DNA of 64,000 nt, taken from assembly GCF_038024105.1 (NCBI RefSeq), contig NZ_CP150661.1:1507001-1571000 (forward strand), in the 5' to 3' direction. This stretch comes from Polaribacter butkevichii (GTDB lineage Bacteria > Bacteroidota > Bacteroidia > Flavobacteriales > Flavobacteriaceae). The position numbers and the translations under genes were made by a program. Positions 1,959 through 40,244 of this stretch are shown here, one piece after another. Within the stretch, counting starts at the first letter, position 1. Each line of letters begins with the position of its first letter. The notes below the pieces were generated by a model. It had not been told where the DNA came from and searched no databases. It saw only the letters and a program-made list of their open reading frames with translations.

Positions 1959-2495
1959 ATGAAAATCAGGAATAAAATAATAATCTTAATTTTGACTTTT
2001 GGTTTATTTTCTTGCAAGTATTCTAATCAAGAAAAAGAAACTAAAAAATCAGCACCTGAATTTATTCATTCTGAAATAGGTTTTTCTCTACCAGATTCTT
2101 TGAAAATTATAAATGATTATGGCCAAATTTTCACAAAATCTCAAAAAGCTGAATTAAACAAAAATATTTCTGATTATGTAATAAATACTACAAAGGAAAT
2201 TATTATCGTAACTATAGACAGCATAAAGCCATACAAAGACATTCAAAAGTTCGCAACTGACTTAGGAAATGACTGGGGAATTGGAGCTCCAAAATGGAAC
2301 AATGGACTTACTATTGTTTTATGTAAACCTTGTAAAAAAATTGGAATAGCAACAGGAACTGGAACTGAACTGATTTTGACTGACGAAATTTGTAAAGAAG
2401 TAATTGAAAATACAATTATACCCGAATTTAAAAAAGGAAAATTTTATAACGGAATTAATAAAGGAGTAACTGAATTAATCACGAAATGGAAATAA
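1959..2495 (+). CDS. TPM-domain lipoprotein
   Basis: 178 residues from ATG at 1959. The frame stays open upstream to 1893, but that part would translate the attC site, so the inner ATG just inside the cassette is preferred. The N-terminus has a hydrophobic stretch ending LFSC, a lipobox, so it is probably a lipoprotein. Residues about 50-178 match the TPM domain (TPM_phosphatase, formerly DUF477): DYGQIFTKSQKAEL near the start, then DWGIG and the GIATGTGTE region. TPM domains are common in Bacteroidota envelope proteins; the exact function of this copy is unknown. It is the only gene of its cassette, whose arms are GTTGTACACA and TGTGTACAAC. Confidence 0.8.
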   Translation: MKIRNKIIILILTFGLFSCKYSNQEKETKKSAPEFIHSEIGFSLPDSLKIINDYGQIFTKSQKAELNKNISDYVINTTKEIIIVTIDSIKPYKDIQKFATDLGNDWGIGAPKWNNGLTIVLCKPCKKIGIATGTGTELILTDEICKEVIENTIIPEFKKGKFYNGINKGVTELITKWK

Positions 2496-2663
2496 AAGTA
2501 CTGTGTACAACAACGTGTAGTAAAAATTGCTAAATTAGTGCTTGACTAAAAGCTTTTGCATTTTTGCTCACTTCAATTTTCCTACGGAAAATAGCCGTTC
2601 ACAAAAACCGCAACTTTCATTACACGTATTCCAAGATCAAATCCTAATAAAATTTAGTTTTTT

Positions 2664-3656
2664 TTAAGCCATATGATTTTGAAGTACAACATAGGGCGTT
2701 CCTCTTTTAACAACCGCAAATGCTCTTGCTATTAGTTTATTTCTCACATTGTTTATCGCTAACATTTTATCTTTTCCTTCTGCTAATTTTTTTTGATAAT
2801 ATAACTTTAGTTCACTATCATGTTGTATAGCAGAAACACTTGCCATACTCAACAAACTTTTCATTTTTCTATCTCCTAAATAATGACACTGTTTTCGCCT
2901 ATGAATACTGGTTCCAGAGCTATGTTCAAAAGGTGCGGTTCCACAATAACTAGAGAACGATCGCCAGCTTTTAAACCTCGTAAAATTACCTGTATGATAA
3001 ATAAGTTGACAAGCAACAACAAAGCCAATTCCTCTCATGCTTCTAAGTAATTCGTAGTTTTTACTCATAGAAATATCGTCAAAAATTATTTCTTCAATTC
3101 TAATTTCTATTGCCTTGACTTGTTTTGTGAGATAGTCAATACTTCGTTTTAAACTGATACAACCTAAATCTGTTGTAGAGCTTGTTAAAAGTACTTTCAT
3201 CTCTTTTAAAGTACCTTTTAAACCTGAATTATTTCTAACCAACTGATCTCTTAAAGCTAACAATCTACCCAACTCTAAATGAGCGCTACTTTTAACAGTA
3301 CTTGGAGTTAATTCCTCCCGGTAAAGCCAACCATACCTAGCAATTACCTGAGCATCTAACTTATCAGTTTTTTCTTTTACAATGCCAGATGAACGTTTAA
3401 TTTTTAACGGACTCTCCTCTACGTAAATAACTTTTTTACTGTGTAAATAAAGTGCCAACTTTAAGGAATAATAACCGGTATTCTCAAAACAATAAAAAAC
3501 AGCACTCTCTTTTGTTGCTTTTAAAACCCATTTTATTAGGCTTTTGTAACCAGTTAAATCGTTCTTAAACTCTTTGTGTACTTGGGCATGATAACAATAA
3601 GCATCAATCGTCTTTTTTGACACATCAATTCCTACTACTTCTTGGTAATTTTTCAT
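2664..3656 (-). CDS. IS110-family DEDD transposase (element a, copy 1)
   Basis: 330 residues. N-terminal DEDD RuvC-like domain with D11 (GIDVSKK), E58 (FENTGYY), D98 and D101 (KTDKLDAQ). The C-terminal IS116/IS110/IS902 domain contains YCGTAPFEHSSGTSIH, where a serine of the SSGTS stretch is the expected nucleophile. Such recombinases act with a structured bridge RNA that pairs with target and donor DNA. The protein is full length, with no frameshift, and is identical in translation to the copy at 38988-39980, which suggests recent transposition. Confidence 0.95.
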   Translation of the reverse strand: MKNYQEVVGIDVSKKTIDAYCYHAQVHKEFKNDLTGYKSLIKWVLKATKESAVFYCFENTGYYSLKLALYLHSKKVIYVEESPLKIKRSSGIVKEKTDKLDAQVIARYGWLYREELTPSTVKSSAHLELGRLLALRDQLVRNNSGLKGTLKEMKVLLTSSTTDLGCISLKRSIDYLTKQVKAIEIRIEEIIFDDISMSKNYELLRSMRGIGFVVACQLIYHTGNFTRFKSWRSFSSYCGTAPFEHSSGTSIHRRKQCHYLGDRKMKSLLSMASVSAIQHDSELKLYYQKKLAEGKDKMLAINNVRNKLIARAFAVVKRGTPYVVLQNHMA

Positions 3657-3679
3657 ATTTTTACAATTAGAATGATTAA

Positions 3680-3825
3680 ATATGTTGCAAAAACTACTTC
3701 CTTTATCGGGGTTTTATACGCCTGGTATTCCAAATGGTTCTTTGCAACTTTATAGAAACAGAGGACTCGTACGTGTAAGGGACCTTCAAATCTAAAACAC
3801 GTTATAGTTCTCCTCTGTTACTACA
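3680..3825 (-). ncRNA. Putative bridge RNA of IS110 element a, copy 1
   Basis: Two hairpins lie upstream of the transposase. Hairpin 3758-3818 (stem ACAGAGGA with TCCTCTGT) comes first in transcript order and holds AACACGTT (3796-3803), the same as the attC right flank, and ACGTGTAA (3771-3778), complementary to the left flank TTACAC. Hairpin 3684-3748 (stem GTTGCAAA with TTTGCAAC) holds GTATTCCAA (3725-3733), identical to the left tip of the element, and CTTTA, complementary to the right tip. This matches the target-loop then donor-loop order of IS110 bridge RNAs. It is a prediction from sequence only. Confidence 0.75.
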
Positions 3826-3955
3826 TAAAGATATTTAATACAAACTAAAGAAACACGTTGCCACCAATTAAAAAAACTCAACAAAACCAACATATTGACA
3901 AGAATGTCGTAAAAATGTCGCAAATAAACCGTTATCAAAATGATAGATTCATAAG

Positions 3956-3963
3956 TAGTTTTG
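3956..3963 (+). promoter_or_regulatory. Possible -7 box for the XRE/DUF4870 gene
   Basis: TAGTTTTG fits the Bacteroidota TAnnTTTG box and lies 26 bases before ATG 3989. No clear -33 TTG is seen at the right distance. Upstream, ATGTCGTAAAAATGTCGC at about 3903-3920 contains a direct repeat that could be an operator for the encoded regulator. Confidence 0.35.
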
Positions 3964-3988
3964 TAGAAATAATAAAACACAAATAACT

Positions 3989-4552
3989 ATGAATGGAATC
4001 GGAAAAAAAATTAGAGAAATAAGAAAGAAAAAAGGACTTTCTCAAGAGGAATTAGCTGAATCTGCAAAATTGAACTTAAGAACAATTCAACGGATTGAAA
4101 ACAACGAAAGTGAACCTCGTGGAAAAACCCTGAATTTAATTTGTGAGGTTCTTGACATAAACGCAGAAGATATTTTAGATTATGGTAAACAACCTGATAA
4201 AAGCTATCTAACAATTTTTCATCTTTCTGTAATAGTCTTTTTAGCAATTCCTGTTGGAAACATAATTGTTCCTTTGATTTTATGGATGAATAAAAAAGAT
4301 AAAATTGTTGGACTAAAAGAAATCGGAGCAAACCTTTTGAATTATCAAATTCTATGGTCGATTATTACATTTTTAAGTATAACTGGGTTCGCTTTTTCGA
4401 AAATTATGCATTATGGTTATTATCCTTTTCTTTTTTATATTTTTATCGGACTTTATGCTTTGAATATAATATTACCGATAACTTTTGCAATTAAAACGAG
4501 CAAAGGAAAAACAGAGAATTTATATCCGAATATAATTAAACTGATAAAATAA
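3989..4552 (+). CDS. XRE-type regulator with DUF4870 membrane domain
   Basis: 187 residues. Residues about 5-62 form an XRE helix-turn-helix (IREIRKKKGLSQEELAESAKLNLRTIQRIEN). The rest has three to four membrane segments with the DUF4870 pattern NIIVPLILWMNKKDK. The fusion suggests a membrane-anchored DNA-binding protein; what it senses is unknown. It is the sole gene of a cassette with arms GTTGCCACC and GGTGGCAAC. The cassette start was separated from its left neighbour by the IS110 insertion. Confidence 0.8.
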   Translation: MNGIGKKIREIRKKKGLSQEELAESAKLNLRTIQRIENNESEPRGKTLNLICEVLDINAEDILDYGKQPDKSYLTIFHLSVIVFLAIPVGNIIVPLILWMNKKDKIVGLKEIGANLLNYQILWSIITFLSITGFAFSKIMHYGYYPFLFYIFIGLYALNIILPITFAIKTSKGKTENLYPNIIKLIK

Positions 4553-4687: not shown

Positions 4688-5137
4688 GCCAAAAATTGTC
4701 CAGAACCACTCAAACCGTTGGAAAAAAAACAATAAAACTCTTGAAGTTTAAAATGTTAGACACTCTCTCGCGAGTCAAAAATTTAGTTTTTAATAAAAAT
4801 TAAAAAGGGTGAAAATATAGAGATTCTTAAAACAAAGTTTGTGGAATTTTTACTCAAACTTAAAATTTAAAAGGCGGAGAAATCTCGCTTTTTAAGAATA
4901 AAAGAAACCACTCAAATGTTGAATTTCCAATTATTGCGGAATGAAAATCTTTGCGGAACTTTCACTCAAACGCAAAATTTAAAAATTAGGAAAGATCTTG
5001 TAAGTCAAAACATGAAAAAAACACTCAAATGTTGAATTACCAATATTGCGGAATTGAAAATGTTGGCGGAATTGTCACTCGAACGCTAAATCTTGAAAAT
5101 AATAACCAAAATCGGAAAACAAAATACAACTTTAGGC
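4688..5137 (+). other. Non-coding cassette, family D, copy 1
   Basis: First of three tandem, nearly identical cassettes with a 577-bp period. Starts GTTGCCAAAAATTGTCC, contains GACACTCTCTCGCGAGTC at about 4760-4777, then six degenerate units starting CACTCAAA and ending GCGGAATT. No supported ORF. Confidence 0.7.
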
Positions 5138-5264
5138 AACAACGTGTAAAAAAAATTGCTTAATTTTAGCTTAATAAAAATTAGTGGCTTTTTTATAAAC
5201 TTCTATTTTCCTTCGGAAAATAGCCGTTCACTTTAATCGCAACTTTTCATAACACAAATACGTT
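5138..5264 (+). repeat. attC-like site 6
   Basis: R'' arm AGGCAAC pairs with cassette start GTTGCC and then diverges by one base. Distal stem TATTTTCC with GGAAAATA; minus-strand loop GAA. Confidence 0.85.
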
Positions 5265-5714
5265 GCCAAAAATTGTCCAGAACCACTCAAACCGTTGGAA
5301 AAAAAACAATAAAACTCTTGGATTTTAAAATGCTAGACACTCTCTCGCGAGTCAAAAATTTAGTTTTTTATAAAAATTAAAAAGGGTGAAAATATAGAGA
5401 TTCTTAAAACAAAGTTTGTGGAATTTTTACTCAAACTTAAAATTTAAAAGGCGGAGAAATCTCGCTTTTTAAGAATAAAAGAAACCACTCAAATGTTGAA
5501 TTTCCAATTATTGCGGAATGAAAATCTTTGCGGAACTTTCACTCAAACGCAAAATTTAAAAATTAGGAAAGATCTTGTAAGTCAAAACATGAAAAAAACA
5601 CTCAAATGTTGAATTACCAATATTGCGGAATTGAAAATGTTGGCGGAATTGTCACTCGAACGCTAAATCTTGAAAATAATAACCAAAATCGGAAAACAAA
5701 AAACAACTTTAGGC
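5265..5714 (+). other. Non-coding cassette, family D, copy 2
   Basis: Almost identical to the copy at 4688-5137, including the CACTCTCTCGCGAGT motif and all CACTCAAA units. Either tandem duplication or repeated capture of the same cassette explains it. Confidence 0.7.
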
Positions 5715-5841
5715 AACAACGTGTAAAAAAAATTGCTTAATTTTAGCTTAATAAAAATTAGTGGCTTTTTTATAAACTTCTATTTTCCTTCGGAAAATAG
5801 CCGTTCACTTTAATCGCAACTTTTCATAACACAAATACGTT
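5715..5841 (+). repeat. attC-like site 7
   Basis: Near-duplicate of site 6: arm AGGCAAC, distal stem TATTTTCC with GGAAAATA, minus-strand loop GAA. Confidence 0.85.
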
Positions 5842-6292
5842 GCCAAAAATTGTCCAGAACCACTCAAACCGTTGGAAAAAAAACAATAAAACTCTTGAAT
5901 TTTAAAATGTTAGACACTCTCTCGCGAGTCAAAAATTTAGTTTTTTATAAAAATTAAAAAGCTTAAAAATATAGAGATTCTTAAAACAAAGTTTGTGGAA
6001 TTTTTACTCAAACTTAAAATTTAAAAAAGGCGGAGAAATCTCGTTTTTTAAGAATAAAAGAAACCACTCAAATGTTGAATTTCCAATTATTTCGGAGTGA
6101 AAATCTTGGCGGAATTATCACTCAAACGTAAAATTTGAAAATTAGGAAAGATCTCGTAAGTCAAAACATGAAAAACACTCAATTGTTGAATTCCAAATAT
6201 TGCGGAATTAAAAATATTGGCGAAATTATCTCTTGAACGCTAAATCTCGAAAATAATAACCAAAATAGGAAAAACAAAAAACAACTTTAGGC
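5842..6292 (+). other. Non-coding cassette, family D, copy 3
   Basis: Third tandem copy (578 bp period), slightly more diverged than copies 1 and 2, but with the GACACTCTCTCGCGAGTC motif and the CACTCAAA units retained. No supported ORF. Confidence 0.7.
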
Positions 6293-6428: not shown

Positions 6429-7601
6429 ATGAAAAAAATAAATCCGAATGAATTATTGAAAATAGGGATTGTATTATTGATTTTTAGTGTTTTATCATCT
6501 TGTAAAATGTCAAGATTCATTTTTTATGGAAAAGCAGACATTGATGATTATAAAATTTTCAAAACACGAAATATAGAAAATTCAAACAAGCAATTTTTCT
6601 TTAAAAAATCAAAAGAGATTATTCCATTTGACACTTTAGAATACTCAATAAAAGACGGCGATAAAAAATACGATTTTAAAAAAACATTTGAGGAGATTTT
6701 AAAAGAAAACGAAACCACATCTTTTATTGTAATTAGGAATGACTCTTTAATACTCGAAAAATACTTTAATGATTATTCAAAAGCTACTTTAGTAAATTCA
6801 TTTTCAACAAGTAAATCAATTTTATCACTATTAATTGGTATTGCAATTGATGATGGATATATAAAATCAGTAGAAGAACCTATAACCAACTACATTCCAG
6901 AGTTTAAAAAAGATGGATTTGATAAAATTAAAATAAGGAACTTACTTCAAATGACTTCGGGAATAAAATTCAAGGAAATATATGGTCCTTTTACTGACGC
7001 CGCAAATTTATACTATGGAAGAAATATTATTCGTGAATTAGGAAAACTTGAAATTCTATACTCGCCAGACACAAAGTTTAATTACAGTAGTGGAGATTCT
7101 CAAATAATGGGATTAGTCTTATCAAGAGCATTAAAAGATATCAGTCTTTCAGAATACCTTTCAAATAAAGTTTGGAAACCATTAGAGATGGAATTTACTG
7201 CTAACTGGAGTCTTGATGATAAAGGTTTAGAAAGAGCTTTTTGTTGTATCAACGCAACTGCGATAGATTTTGCAAAAATAGGCAGACTATATTTAAATAA
7301 AGGTTCTTGGAATGAGAATCAAATTGTATCAGAAAAATGGATTGAACAAACCACAAAGTACGATGAAAGTAAAAAAATAAACCCAGAAAAGTATTATTAC
7401 AATTACAATTGGTACATAAATCCAAATGGAACCTATTATACTCAAGGCTACAAAGGTCAACACATTTATATTGATTCAAAAAATCAATTAATAATTGTAA
7501 GACTTGGAAAAGATTTTGGAAAAATGGAATGGGCAACATTTTTTCAAGAATTATCAAATAAATATGAAATAAATACTGGCTACAACAATGGCTATAAGTA
7601 A
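6429..7601 (+). CDS. Serine beta-lactamase-like hydrolase, lipoprotein
   Basis: 390 residues. The N-terminal hydrophobic segment ends LSSC (lipobox), so it is probably anchored in the envelope. The beta-lactamase/transpeptidase-like domain (PF00144 type) shows S126-T-S-K129 as the SxxK nucleophile motif and a YSS triad at about residue 215 in place of the usual YxN. The KTG-like third motif is replaced by GYKGQH, as in many family members. Likely a peptidase, esterase or amidase; substrate unknown and not evidence of antibiotic resistance. The last codons run into the next attC site, which supplies the stop TAA. Cassette arms GTTGTAGCCA and TGGCTACAAC. Confidence 0.85.
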   Translation: MKKINPNELLKIGIVLLIFSVLSSCKMSRFIFYGKADIDDYKIFKTRNIENSNKQFFFKKSKEIIPFDTLEYSIKDGDKKYDFKKTFEEILKENETTSFIVIRNDSLILEKYFNDYSKATLVNSFSTSKSILSLLIGIAIDDGYIKSVEEPITNYIPEFKKDGFDKIKIRNLLQMTSGIKFKEIYGPFTDAANLYYGRNIIRELGKLEILYSPDTKFNYSSGDSQIMGLVLSRALKDISLSEYLSNKVWKPLEMEFTANWSLDDKGLERAFCCINATAIDFAKIGRLYLNKGSWNENQIVSEKWIEQTTKYDESKKINPEKYYYNYNWYINPNGTYYTQGYKGQHIYIDSKNQLIIVRLGKDFGKMEWATFFQELSNKYEINTGYNNGYK

Positions 7602-7706
7602 TTGCTTGTTCTCGCCTACTTACGAAAATCCTCGCGAATTTTCAGTTTTGTGAATACTTGCAAAGTTAATCACTAAACCACGCAACTACTCATAGCCGAG
7701 ACCGTT
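7584..7706 (+). repeat. attC-like site 9 (variant inner stem)
   Basis: Arm TGGCTACAAC matches cassette start GTTGTAGCCA. The inner stem is GGCTATAAG with CTCATAGCC instead of GTATAA/TTATAC, a compensated change. Distal stem GAAAAT with ATTTTC and one mismatch; minus-strand loop GCGA. It overlaps the end of the serine hydrolase gene. Confidence 0.82.
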
Positions 7707-11192: not shown

Positions 11193-11424
11193 ATAATAAA
11201 TAAAATTATGTCGGAATTTTAGTTTGTTTGAGGAATCTTAAACTGAACTGAAAAGCAAAATCTATATTGAATTAGGAATTTAGCAAGAAACGGAATTACT
11301 CTCTCAATCGGAATTGAAAAAATTTGAGAAATAATAGGCTTACCGAATTCACTCAAACGCTGGAAAACAAAAAAACTGAATTAAGCCGAATAAGAATAAC
11401 TCGGAATAAAAACAACGAAATGCC
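11193..11424 (+). other. Non-coding tail of cassette 15
   Basis: 232 bases between the small membrane protein and the next attC. It carries ACTCTCTC and ACTCAAACGCTGG, motifs of the non-coding cassette families, so this cassette seems to join a short gene to part of a non-coding cassette. No further ORF is supported. Confidence 0.5.
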
Positions 11425-11550
11425 AACACCGTGTAGTAAAAATTGCTAAATTAGTTCTTAACTAAAAGCTGTTGCATTTTTGCTCACTTCAATTTTCCTG
11501 CGGAAAATAGCCGTTCACAAAAATCGCAACTTTCATTACACAAACACGTT
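11425..11550 (+). repeat. attC-like site 15
   Basis: Arm AAATGCCAAC matches start GTTGGCATT. Right end reads TTACACAAACACGTTGG, the uninterrupted form of the sequence targeted by IS110 element a. Minus-strand distal loop GCA. Confidence 0.9.
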
Positions 11551-11577
11551 GGCGGTAATTTAAAAAAACATACATAA

Positions 11578-25867: not shown

Positions 25868-25997
25868 AAAAACTACTGCCAACAAAGAACTGAGCTAAAA
25901 AACAACTCTTTTCTTCATTAAATTTACGCACTATTATTTTAGGCTCATAATGCTATGAATTCGTATTTTGAGCTTTTATTTTTTATGTAAATACTAC

Positions 25998-26966
25998 TTA
26001 TTTTGATAAAACAGAAACGTACGTTTCGTCATATGGTAAACCTGATTTTGCAATAGCAAAACCCTGTCTTATCAATTTATTTGAAACCGCTATTAAAGCC
26101 AATTTCTTACTCTTACCCTTGTTAACAATTCGCTCATAAATCTCGCGACATCCTTTATTATGCTTGCTAGCTGTAAAAGCACAGAGAAACAAGAGGTTGC
26201 GTAACTTCCTATTTCCAACCTTACTTATTCTACTTCTTCCACGTACACTACTCCCAGATACTCTTATCGTTGGAGTAATTCCTACATAACTACATAATTG
26301 TGAAGCTGTTTCAAATTTCTTAAATCCATCAGTAATTACAATTAAAAACAATGCCGTTTTCAATCCTATTCCTGGAATACTTGTTAGCAATGTTAACTGT
26401 GCTTGCTGGTCTTGTTTTACTAACGATAATACTTTTGTTTCGATTCCTAAAATCTCTTTATCTAAATGTTTTTTAGTCCGTTTTAATGAACTATAAACCC
26501 ACTTAGAAGGAATCCCTAAAACTTCTTCTCCGTGAATTTTATTCTTAACCGCTGTACGTTTTTTAATATTACTATCTAATAATCTAAACAACTGTAAACA
26601 CTCGCTCTGAACATTGGTAAGAGCCGTATACAATGGAACTTCATTAATGGTTCCATATTCACAAATAGCCTTCGCATCACTTTTATCCGTCTTTACTTTA
26701 GATAATTTCATTTGGATAAATCGCTTGACTGATAAAGGATTTACAACCGATACAAAAATGCTTTGCTTGTATAAAAACTGAGCTAATCTATAATGATAAT
26801 AACCTGTTGCTTCCATAATTACTAATGAGTTGTTAGGCAGACTTTTTAAGAATCTTTTAAACCCTAATTCATCATTTTTAAATTGATCATGACCACTTGT
26901 ACTTCCATAAACATCAAAAACGTCTTTACTGATGTCAACTCCAAAAATTTCCTTATATTTATTCAT
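25998..26966 (-). CDS. IS110-family DEDD transposase (element b)
   Basis: 322 residues when started at ATG 26966; the frame is open to 27035, but the inner start gives the family's usual N-terminus MNKYKEIFGVDISKD. DEDD residues: D11, E52 (IMEATGYY), D94 and D97 (KTDKSDAK). The C-terminal domain has the IS116/IS110/IS902 pattern with VGITPTIRVSGSSVRGRS containing the expected nucleophilic serine. Only distantly related to element a. Confidence 0.93.
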   Translation of the reverse strand: MNKYKEIFGVDISKDVFDVYGSTSGHDQFKNDELGFKRFLKSLPNNSLVIMEATGYYHYRLAQFLYKQSIFVSVVNPLSVKRFIQMKLSKVKTDKSDAKAICEYGTINEVPLYTALTNVQSECLQLFRLLDSNIKKRTAVKNKIHGEEVLGIPSKWVYSSLKRTKKHLDKEILGIETKVLSLVKQDQQAQLTLLTSIPGIGLKTALFLIVITDGFKKFETASQLCSYVGITPTIRVSGSSVRGRSRISKVGNRKLRNLLFLCAFTASKHNKGCREIYERIVNKGKSKKLALIAVSNKLIRQGFAIAKSGLPYDETYVSVLSK

Positions 26967-26984
26967 AAGAACTGATTTATGAAA

Positions 26985-27140
26985 GAATAACCTACTTTTA
27001 CTCACAACAACTTGAAATCGAGATCTAGGTCTCACAGAACTGAACGTGATTGTTAGTAGAAAAGAGAGAGGATTATCAATGTTGTCGAAGTCTTGGCTTC
27101 ACCGTGTATATTAACCTTAATTCTCTCTTTTATTCTTTCT
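26985..27140 (-). ncRNA. Putative bridge RNA of IS110 element b
   Basis: Two hairpins upstream of the transposase. Hairpin 27060-27131 (stem AAAAGAGAGA with TCTCTCTTTT) holds CCGTGTATA (27102-27110), identical to the attC flank right of the insertion, and TGTTG (27080-27084), complementary to the left flank CAACA. Hairpin 26992-27059 (CTACT and AACAA with TTGTT and AGTAG) holds AGAACTGA (27036-27043), identical to the left tip of the element. Order and polarity match IS110 target and donor loops. Prediction only. Confidence 0.7.
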
Positions 27141-27327
27141 GATTTATATACTTAAATTTAGTCTTTTATTATAAAATGCTAACTTAAGCCGTGTATAAAA
27201 AATTGCTTATTTTTAGCTTAACCAAAGTTAGTTGCATTTTTGTAAACTTCTATTTTCCTGCGGAAAATAGCCGTTCACTTTAAACGCAACTTTCCATAAC
27301 ACAACAACGTTGTAGTGCATTTGAAAA

Positions 27328-38848: not shown

Positions 38849-38987
38849 TTCATTGCTAGTACTCGCCTACTTACGAAAATCCTCGCGGATTTTCTATTCG
38901 GTTTTTATTTGCTAAATTTAGTGTTTAAACCACGCAACAAACCATATACGTATTCCAAGATCAAATCCTAATAAAATTTAGTTTTTT

Positions 38988-39980
38988 TTAAGCCATATGA
39001 TTTTGAAGTACAACATAGGGCGTTCCTCTTTTAACAACCGCAAATGCTCTTGCTATTAGTTTATTTCTCACATTGTTTATCGCTAACATTTTATCTTTTC
39101 CTTCTGCTAATTTTTTTTGATAATATAACTTTAGTTCACTATCATGTTGTATAGCAGAAACACTTGCCATACTCAACAAACTTTTCATTTTTCTATCTCC
39201 TAAATAATGACACTGTTTTCGCCTATGAATACTGGTTCCAGAGCTATGTTCAAAAGGTGCGGTTCCACAATAACTAGAGAACGATCGCCAGCTTTTAAAC
39301 CTCGTAAAATTACCTGTATGATAAATAAGTTGACAAGCAACAACAAAGCCAATTCCTCTCATGCTTCTAAGTAATTCGTAGTTTTTACTCATAGAAATAT
39401 CGTCAAAAATTATTTCTTCAATTCTAATTTCTATTGCCTTGACTTGTTTTGTGAGATAGTCAATACTTCGTTTTAAACTGATACAACCTAAATCTGTTGT
39501 AGAGCTTGTTAAAAGTACTTTCATCTCTTTTAAAGTACCTTTTAAACCTGAATTATTTCTAACCAACTGATCTCTTAAAGCTAACAATCTACCCAACTCT
39601 AAATGAGCGCTACTTTTAACAGTACTTGGAGTTAATTCCTCCCGGTAAAGCCAACCATACCTAGCAATTACCTGAGCATCTAACTTATCAGTTTTTTCTT
39701 TTACAATGCCAGATGAACGTTTAATTTTTAACGGACTCTCCTCTACGTAAATAACTTTTTTACTGTGTAAATAAAGTGCCAACTTTAAGGAATAATAACC
39801 GGTATTCTCAAAACAATAAAAAACAGCACTCTCTTTTGTTGCTTTTAAAACCCATTTTATTAGGCTTTTGTAACCAGTTAAATCGTTCTTAAACTCTTTG
39901 TGTACTTGGGCATGATAACAATAAGCATCAATCGTCTTTTTTGACACATCAATTCCTACTACTTCTTGGTAATTTTTCAT
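38988..39980 (-). CDS. IS110-family DEDD transposase (element a, copy 2)
   Basis: 330 residues, identical in translation to the copy at 2664-3656: D11, E58, D98, D101 and the SSGTS serine region are intact. Intact and identical copies suggest an active or recently active element. Confidence 0.95.
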   Translation of the reverse strand: MKNYQEVVGIDVSKKTIDAYCYHAQVHKEFKNDLTGYKSLIKWVLKATKESAVFYCFENTGYYSLKLALYLHSKKVIYVEESPLKIKRSSGIVKEKTDKLDAQVIARYGWLYREELTPSTVKSSAHLELGRLLALRDQLVRNNSGLKGTLKEMKVLLTSSTTDLGCISLKRSIDYLTKQVKAIEIRIEEIIFDDISMSKNYELLRSMRGIGFVVACQLIYHTGNFTRFKSWRSFSSYCGTAPFEHSSGTSIHRRKQCHYLGDRKMKSLLSMASVSAIQHDSELKLYYQKKLAEGKDKMLAINNVRNKLIARAFAVVKRGTPYVVLQNHMA

Positions 39981-40003
39981 ATTTTTACAATTAGAATGAT
40001 TAA

Positions 40004-40149
40004 ATATGTTGCAAAAACTACTTCCTTTATCGGGGTTTTATACGCCTAGTATTCCAAATGGTTCTTTGCAACTTTATAGAAACAGAGGACTCGTACGTGT
40101 AAGGGACCTTCAAATCTAAAACACGTTATAGTTCTCCTCTGTTACTACA
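40004..40149 (-). ncRNA. Putative bridge RNA of IS110 element a, copy 2
   Basis: Same two hairpins as in copy 1 (donor loop 40008-40072, target loop 40082-40142). The target loop is unchanged although the occupied site differs slightly, so it seems to tolerate a C-to-T change beside R' and changes in the other flank. One base differs in the donor loop (CCTAGTATTCC). Confidence 0.72.
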
Positions 40150-40244
40150 TAAAGATATTTAATACAAACTAAAGAAATACGTTGGCAACAAGCTGTAAAA
40201 AATCCGTTAAATCAAGAAAAGTAAGAATTAAATTGAAAATTTTG

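Follow-up and report, generated by a model that had tools for sequence, protein, structure and literature searches.

A 64,000-nucleotide stretch of the Polaribacter butkevichii genome (assembly GCF_038024105.1, contig NZ_CP150661.1, positions 1,507,001 to 1,571,000; hereafter the window) contains an insertion sequence (IS) of the IS110 group that interrupts an integron attC site. We propose, with a probability of about 0.93, that a bridge RNA encoded upstream of the transposase gene of this element targets the R' part of attC and the element's own ends. The parts of the element, in window coordinates, are listed below.

2626..3850, minus strand (right end 2626, left end 3850): IS110-group insertion sequence, copy 1, delimited by copy alignment, sister elements and the intact site
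2664..3656, minus strand: DEDD transposase/recombinase of 330 amino acids (PF01548, PF02371; NF033542; alignment to IS621, 8wt6)
3657..3850, minus strand: putative bridge RNA in the non-coding region upstream of the transposase (fold z-score, compensatory changes)
3753..3823, minus strand: first hairpin, predicted target-binding loop (fold and covariation)
3684..3748, minus strand: second hairpin, predicted donor-binding loop (fold and covariation)
3795..3803, minus strand: left target guide AACGTGTTT, exact complement of flank 3851-3859, covarying with flanks across relatives
3773..3778, minus strand: right target guide TTACAC, same letters as plus-strand flank 2620-2625, covarying across relatives
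3725..3733, minus strand: left donor guide TTGGAATAC, identical to the right tip of the element
3698..3705, minus strand: right donor guide TAAAGGAA, complement of the left tip CTTTA and adjoining bases with one wobble

The element is 1,225 bp long and lies between L' and the R' core of attC. The product of its gene contains both IS110 Pfam domains (PF01548, DEDD N-terminal, and PF02371, Transposase_20 C-terminal) and passes the NCBIfam model for the IS110 family RNA-guided transposase (NF033542) with 172 bits against a cut-off of 140. Residues 6-324 align with the transposases of IS621 and ISCro4, for which structures have been solved. The non-coding part is 194 nt upstream of the transposase and 38 nt downstream. 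The genome, a single contig of 4.08 Mb, has four near-identical copies, all in one orientation and within cassette arrays. The interrupted site, its intact counterpart and the second copy in the window are as follows.

2508..2625, plus strand: attC site 4 (the fourth of the window), R'' side up to the R' core, split by the IS (covariance model, 95.1 bits at L002:808-935)
3851..3860, plus strand: R' core of attC site 4, AAACACGTTG (flank and R' typing)
11424..11551, plus strand: intact attC with an R' half identical to the flanks of copy 1 once joined (exact 25-mer, C1:1518526-1518550)
38950..40174, minus strand: copy 2 of the IS, with one base changed, inside an attC of the AAATACGTTG type

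Three lines of evidence agree on the ends and therefore define the element as 2626-3850. First, sister elements with the left guide AACGTTGTT (L095 and L096) are flanked by CAACGTTGTT and by GTATATGG or GTATAAGC, in agreement with the commonest R' type of the P. butkevichii genome. Second, the joined flanks of copy 1 form an exact 25-mer with a single match in the genome, located in the intact attC; joining them restores the site with no base lost and none duplicated. Third, the sequences AAACACGTTG and AAATACGTTG beside copies also occur as R' types at intact sites. A preliminary description had placed the element at 2509..3859 in attC site 4 beside R'; the site and the position stand, but the ends are now set slightly inside. 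The earlier placing took an outer repeat as the element end; two target patterns built on it gave no sites, and the ends were therefore corrected. The element has one exact 8-nt pair, 1 and 27 nt from its ends. A Bacteroidota-type promoter consensus, sought across the abutted ends, was matched only in some distant relatives.

The upstream region has the properties expected from a structured RNA. Folding of 3657-3855 gives -47 kcal/mol with a z-score of -3.87. The alignment of 24 upstream regions from relatives 37-100% identical yields two hairpins with internal loops, and compensatory changes were observed at 16 of the 22 pairs. The fraction of paired cells over the 24 sequences is 94.5%, compared with 79.7% for shuffled and at most 44.0% for slid sequences. 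The spots that vary between the conserved stretches of the alignment are the places of the guides and the tip of the second hairpin. These data support a two-loop architecture that appears to be maintained by compensatory changes, and they bear out the earlier suggestion of two hairpins upstream of the transposase in the order target, then donor.

Both loops match the sequences that they would be expected to bind. In the target loop, which comes first, the left guide matches nine of nine bases and the right guide six; the 5' guide corresponds to the top strand of the left target, and the 3' guide to the complement of the right target. The preliminary description had pointed to identity of the first hairpin with the right flank and complementarity to the left flank, and had recognised the left-guide/right-guide arrangement of IS110 bridge RNAs; both observations hold, as do the loop order and the upstream location of the RNA. 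The donor loop fits both element ends, with nine of nine bases for the left donor guide and one wobble for the right one. The sequence in the second hairpin is indeed that of an element tip, here called the right tip (2626). In distant relatives the donor guides match at 6-9 of 9 positions, except in L046, where the pattern caught a wrong place. The 194-nt region was also dinucleotide-shuffled 3,000 times: seven of the shuffled sequences had a left match of 9 bases, 902 a right match of 6 bases and two had both. Thus, for copy 1 taken singly, significance is reached by the left guide but not by the right one alone.

The question of the right guide was settled by the family-wide comparison of guides and flanks. 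We examined 93 loci (17 of 110 had been dropped beforehand); 77 yielded the left guide together with both flanks and represent 24 distinct guide pairs. Over these pairs, the left guide matches its own left flank at a mean of 7.47 of 9 positions, compared with 3.33 for shuffled partners, and the right guide matches its own flank at 4.36 of 7, compared with 2.23. None of 100,000 permutations reached the observed match for either guide. The same holds for the 15 pairs below 50% identity (left 6.69 vs 3.06, right 4.73 vs 2.19; 0 of 100,000 each). Several sisters seem to be naturally re-aimed: the left guide AACGTTGTT stands beside AACGTTGTT in L073 and L094-L096, which occupy the majority R' type, and the left guide AACGGTCTT stands beside AACGGTCTC in L037 and L056, AACGGTCTC being an R' type found intact at window position 7682. 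All six adjoin attC. This covariation over 24 pairs supports the earlier proposal that the element may be programmed by its guides to find integron sites.

The same comparison bears on the possibility that the transposase itself recognises attC DNA or the folded hairpin and that the upstream region is only a leader. Close relatives have one common left guide and one target type, as protein recognition would allow, and since both are common, the two mechanisms are indistinguishable within that group. However, relatives 58-69% identical occupy other R' sequences with fitting guides, distant relatives occupy non-attC sites that their guides also fit, and the loop architecture is preserved by compensatory changes. 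We thus consider protein recognition improbable and retain guidance by the upstream RNA.

The host genome carries many attC sites. A covariance model was built from 28 intact sites of the window and scored on the best 150 of 7,969 genome candidates. All of these 150 scored at E 7.8e-11 or better, so the number of attC sites, at least 150, is a lower bound. Two arrays, at about 1.434-1.548 Mb and 2.025-2.053 Mb, hold most of them. A cassette array directly follows the gene at C1:1432773-1433573 (genome G000), which is oriented as the array. The name integrase-like reflects the position of this gene ahead of the first attC; its NCBIfam scores are under the cut-offs. The search with the integron integrase family gave only matches under the cut-off in this genome, and all 14 controls matched too. 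In the window, two adjacent cassettes in 5137-5842 have identical attC sites (one at 5137-5265, the other ending at 5842), which indicates a local array duplication.

The R' types occupied by the copies fit the guide. R' typing of 142 attC sites found by pattern in the two arrays, unbroken from L' to R', gave AACAACGTT in 95, AAACACGTT in 17 and AAATACGTT in 16, with other cores being rarer. Three of the four copies reside in AAACACGTT sites, one in a AAATACGTT site and none in the majority class. By our own arithmetic, the chance of drawing all four from the two guide-fitting classes is about 0.004 (37/146 to the fourth power). The preliminary description had named copies at sites unlike the loop as a finding that would speak against guidance; instead, each of the four copies in the genome lies in an attC that fits the left guide, one of them by a G-T wobble; in this copy (L003, in the AAATACGTT site) a C to T change keeps the wobble with the guide.

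Two further explanations can be weighed against these insertion sites. The copies could have been spread by cassette shuffling, the IS being carried inside cassettes and attC not being chosen each time. The location of all four copies in cassette arrays, in one orientation, is compatible with such riding. Nevertheless, the interrupted attC sites differ among the copies in sequence type and in flanks, and relatives in other genera occupy the same point of attC, so that we regard this explanation as very improbable. The R' preference could also reflect selection alone, if insertions into genes were lost and those in attC, a benign place between genes, survived. This would be the least credible account: the at least 150 scored attC sites of about 128 bp cover only about 0.5% of the genome, the four copies share one position and one orientation relative to attC (offset -9 throughout), and all of them lie in guide-fitting R' types that make up 33 of the 142 intact sites. 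Guided insertion into attC therefore remains our preferred reading.

The association with attC extends to relatives, as judged by scoring with the attC model beside the right end of the element at a threshold of 27 bits. Among copies at least 80% identical, 35 of 42 abut attC (31 of 38 without the four P. butkevichii copies); the count takes in G343:C2:10007 and L013, read through the longer duplicate L079, and leaves out the partial match G327:C1:1937391. Abutment was found for six of 11 relatives with 55-79% identity and for none of 41 below 50%, although in 22 of these 41 the end was set by a fixed offset, so matches may be missed. The named close relatives span nine genera, which we take to belong to Flavobacteriaceae, and attC-abutting copies were found in five of them: Polaribacter, Bizionia, Mesonia, Lacinutrix and Psychroserpens. 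Another genome of the same genus (G343) has ten matches. When 395 genomes were drawn across the class, a transposase match at E 1e-100 or better came up in one, P. butkevichii itself, hence spread outside the family is not supported.

Several observations weigh against the proposed guidance. No core dinucleotide common to both joined ends, target and donor, was seen, and Rfam gave no match in region 2400-4100. For seven of the 42 close copies no abutting attC was scored: in L016 and L026 the sequence ends at the element or close to it, in L010 and L024 the matches are sub-threshold, and in L007, L019 and L023 none was found. The count of 0 of 41 for distant relatives was made without knowing whether their genomes carry attC arrays. 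A set of 11 insertions in G378 (the L084 set) has no left match in the fixed register (2.5 of 9 for own flanks, 2.66 for others); its loop is one base longer. Similarly, L048 has a left match of only 2 of 9 in the fixed register, and its match is shifted by one base. The agreement of right guides is modest, with 2 of 7 in L039. The G378 element (L084, L097-L106) is present in at least 13 copies, with a widely variable left flank and a mostly G-rich right flank.

In the proposed mechanism, the 194-nt stretch preceding the gene would be transcribed, and its RNA would be bound by the transposase and work with it as a bridge RNA. The first loop would pair with the R' part of attC on both strands and the second loop with the element's own ends; through this double pairing, the IS would be inserted between L' and the R' core. 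We infer that such an insertion would disable the attC site.

A second IS110 element in the window occupies the opposite end of another attC.

25885..27188, minus strand: second IS110 element (L005) in R'' of another attC, with the transposase at about 25998-26966

Its transposase is 33% identical to that of copy 1, and its joined flanks restore the attC R''. Its loop holds ATATACACGG and the flank reads TTATACACGG. We examined 51 of 87 genus matches of this lineage, counting any attC match at E 0.05 (the weakest having 23.6 bits). An attC was found at the left end of 25 of 36 elements with at least 75% identity and of eight of 15 below that. Guide and flank were readable in 35 of the 51, with a mean left match of 6.2 of 8; the flanks vary little and no permutation test was applied. 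In three relatives of this element (L124, L154 and L166), CAGTTCTT or GAGTTCTT is followed by CTTAAG, that is, the right end abuts the left end; such junctions resemble tandem copies or a circle junction.

We speculate, as a rather unlikely extension, that integrons of Flavobacteriaceae are a niche shared by two or more separate lineages of IS110, each with an evolved attC address (R' in one, R'' in the other), the R' address being split further by sequence class through guide changes. In addition to insertion, IS110 recombinases are capable of excising or inverting DNA that lies between matching sites; pairs of such copies could therefore move cassettes without the integrase. If true, this would constitute an RNA-guided second layer of cassette shuffling.

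The elements described above provide a natural set of putative IS110 bridge RNAs whose aim has changed inside a single family of targets (R' types AAACACGTT, AACAACGTT and GAGACCGTT, and R'' in the second lineage), and this makes the rules of guide-target pairing testable with existing sequences.

Two cassette genes of the window encode a DUF4870-containing helix-turn-helix protein (3989-4552) and a serine hydrolase of the PF00144 family (6429-7601).

In the open-licence literature, searched by titles and starts of abstracts, we found no description of attC targeting by an IS110-group element through an upstream RNA; preprints and most subscription papers fall outside this scope, and the result is no proof of novelty. 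A survey of Shewanella integrons reports IS110-family elements but no IS interrupting attC (PMC9229058). The architecture described here resembles that of IS621, for which the bridge RNA system was described (PMC11208160). The two share a homologous DEDD recombinase, an upstream RNA, a target loop followed by a donor loop, and left and right target and donor guides (LTG, RTG, LDG, RDG). Target and donor of IS621 both contain a CT core; none in common is seen here, and the target is attC. ISEc21, another element of the IS110 type, likewise has an upstream RNA with the bottom-strand match before the top-strand one, produces no target duplication and has a relative with a naturally altered guide; its target, however, lies within transposase genes of the IS3 family (PMC11187229).

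RNA-guided targeting of attC itself has been demonstrated, according to the same report, for the IS1111 elements ISKpn4 and ISPst6, which use a seekRNA (PMC11187229); an attC-targeting IS1111 group had also been mentioned in the preliminary description. As in these elements, RNA derived from the P. butkevichii element, as read from its sequence, would match both strands of the attC target. In contrast to them, its RNA region is upstream rather than downstream of the transposase, and the guides are in the IS110 order, whereas ISKpn4 and ISPst6 have subterminal inverted repeats and the reversed guide order. The attC insertion is shared with the IS1111-attC group, but the 11-13 bp repeats that this group has at 7 and 3 bp from its ends are absent: the best 12-nt comparison at these offsets gave only six of 12. 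The host also differs, being a member of Flavobacteriaceae with two lineages at opposite ends of attC. ISPa21 from integrons of Pseudomonas aeruginosa is an IS110-family element that disrupts attC and was suggested to freeze the cassette array, but it belongs to the IS1111 group (PMC11616780). Taken together, the comparison suggests that RNA-guided attC targeting arose not only in IS1111 but also in the IS110 group, and such an origin would bear on the freezing or rearrangement of cassette arrays in marine Bacteroidota.
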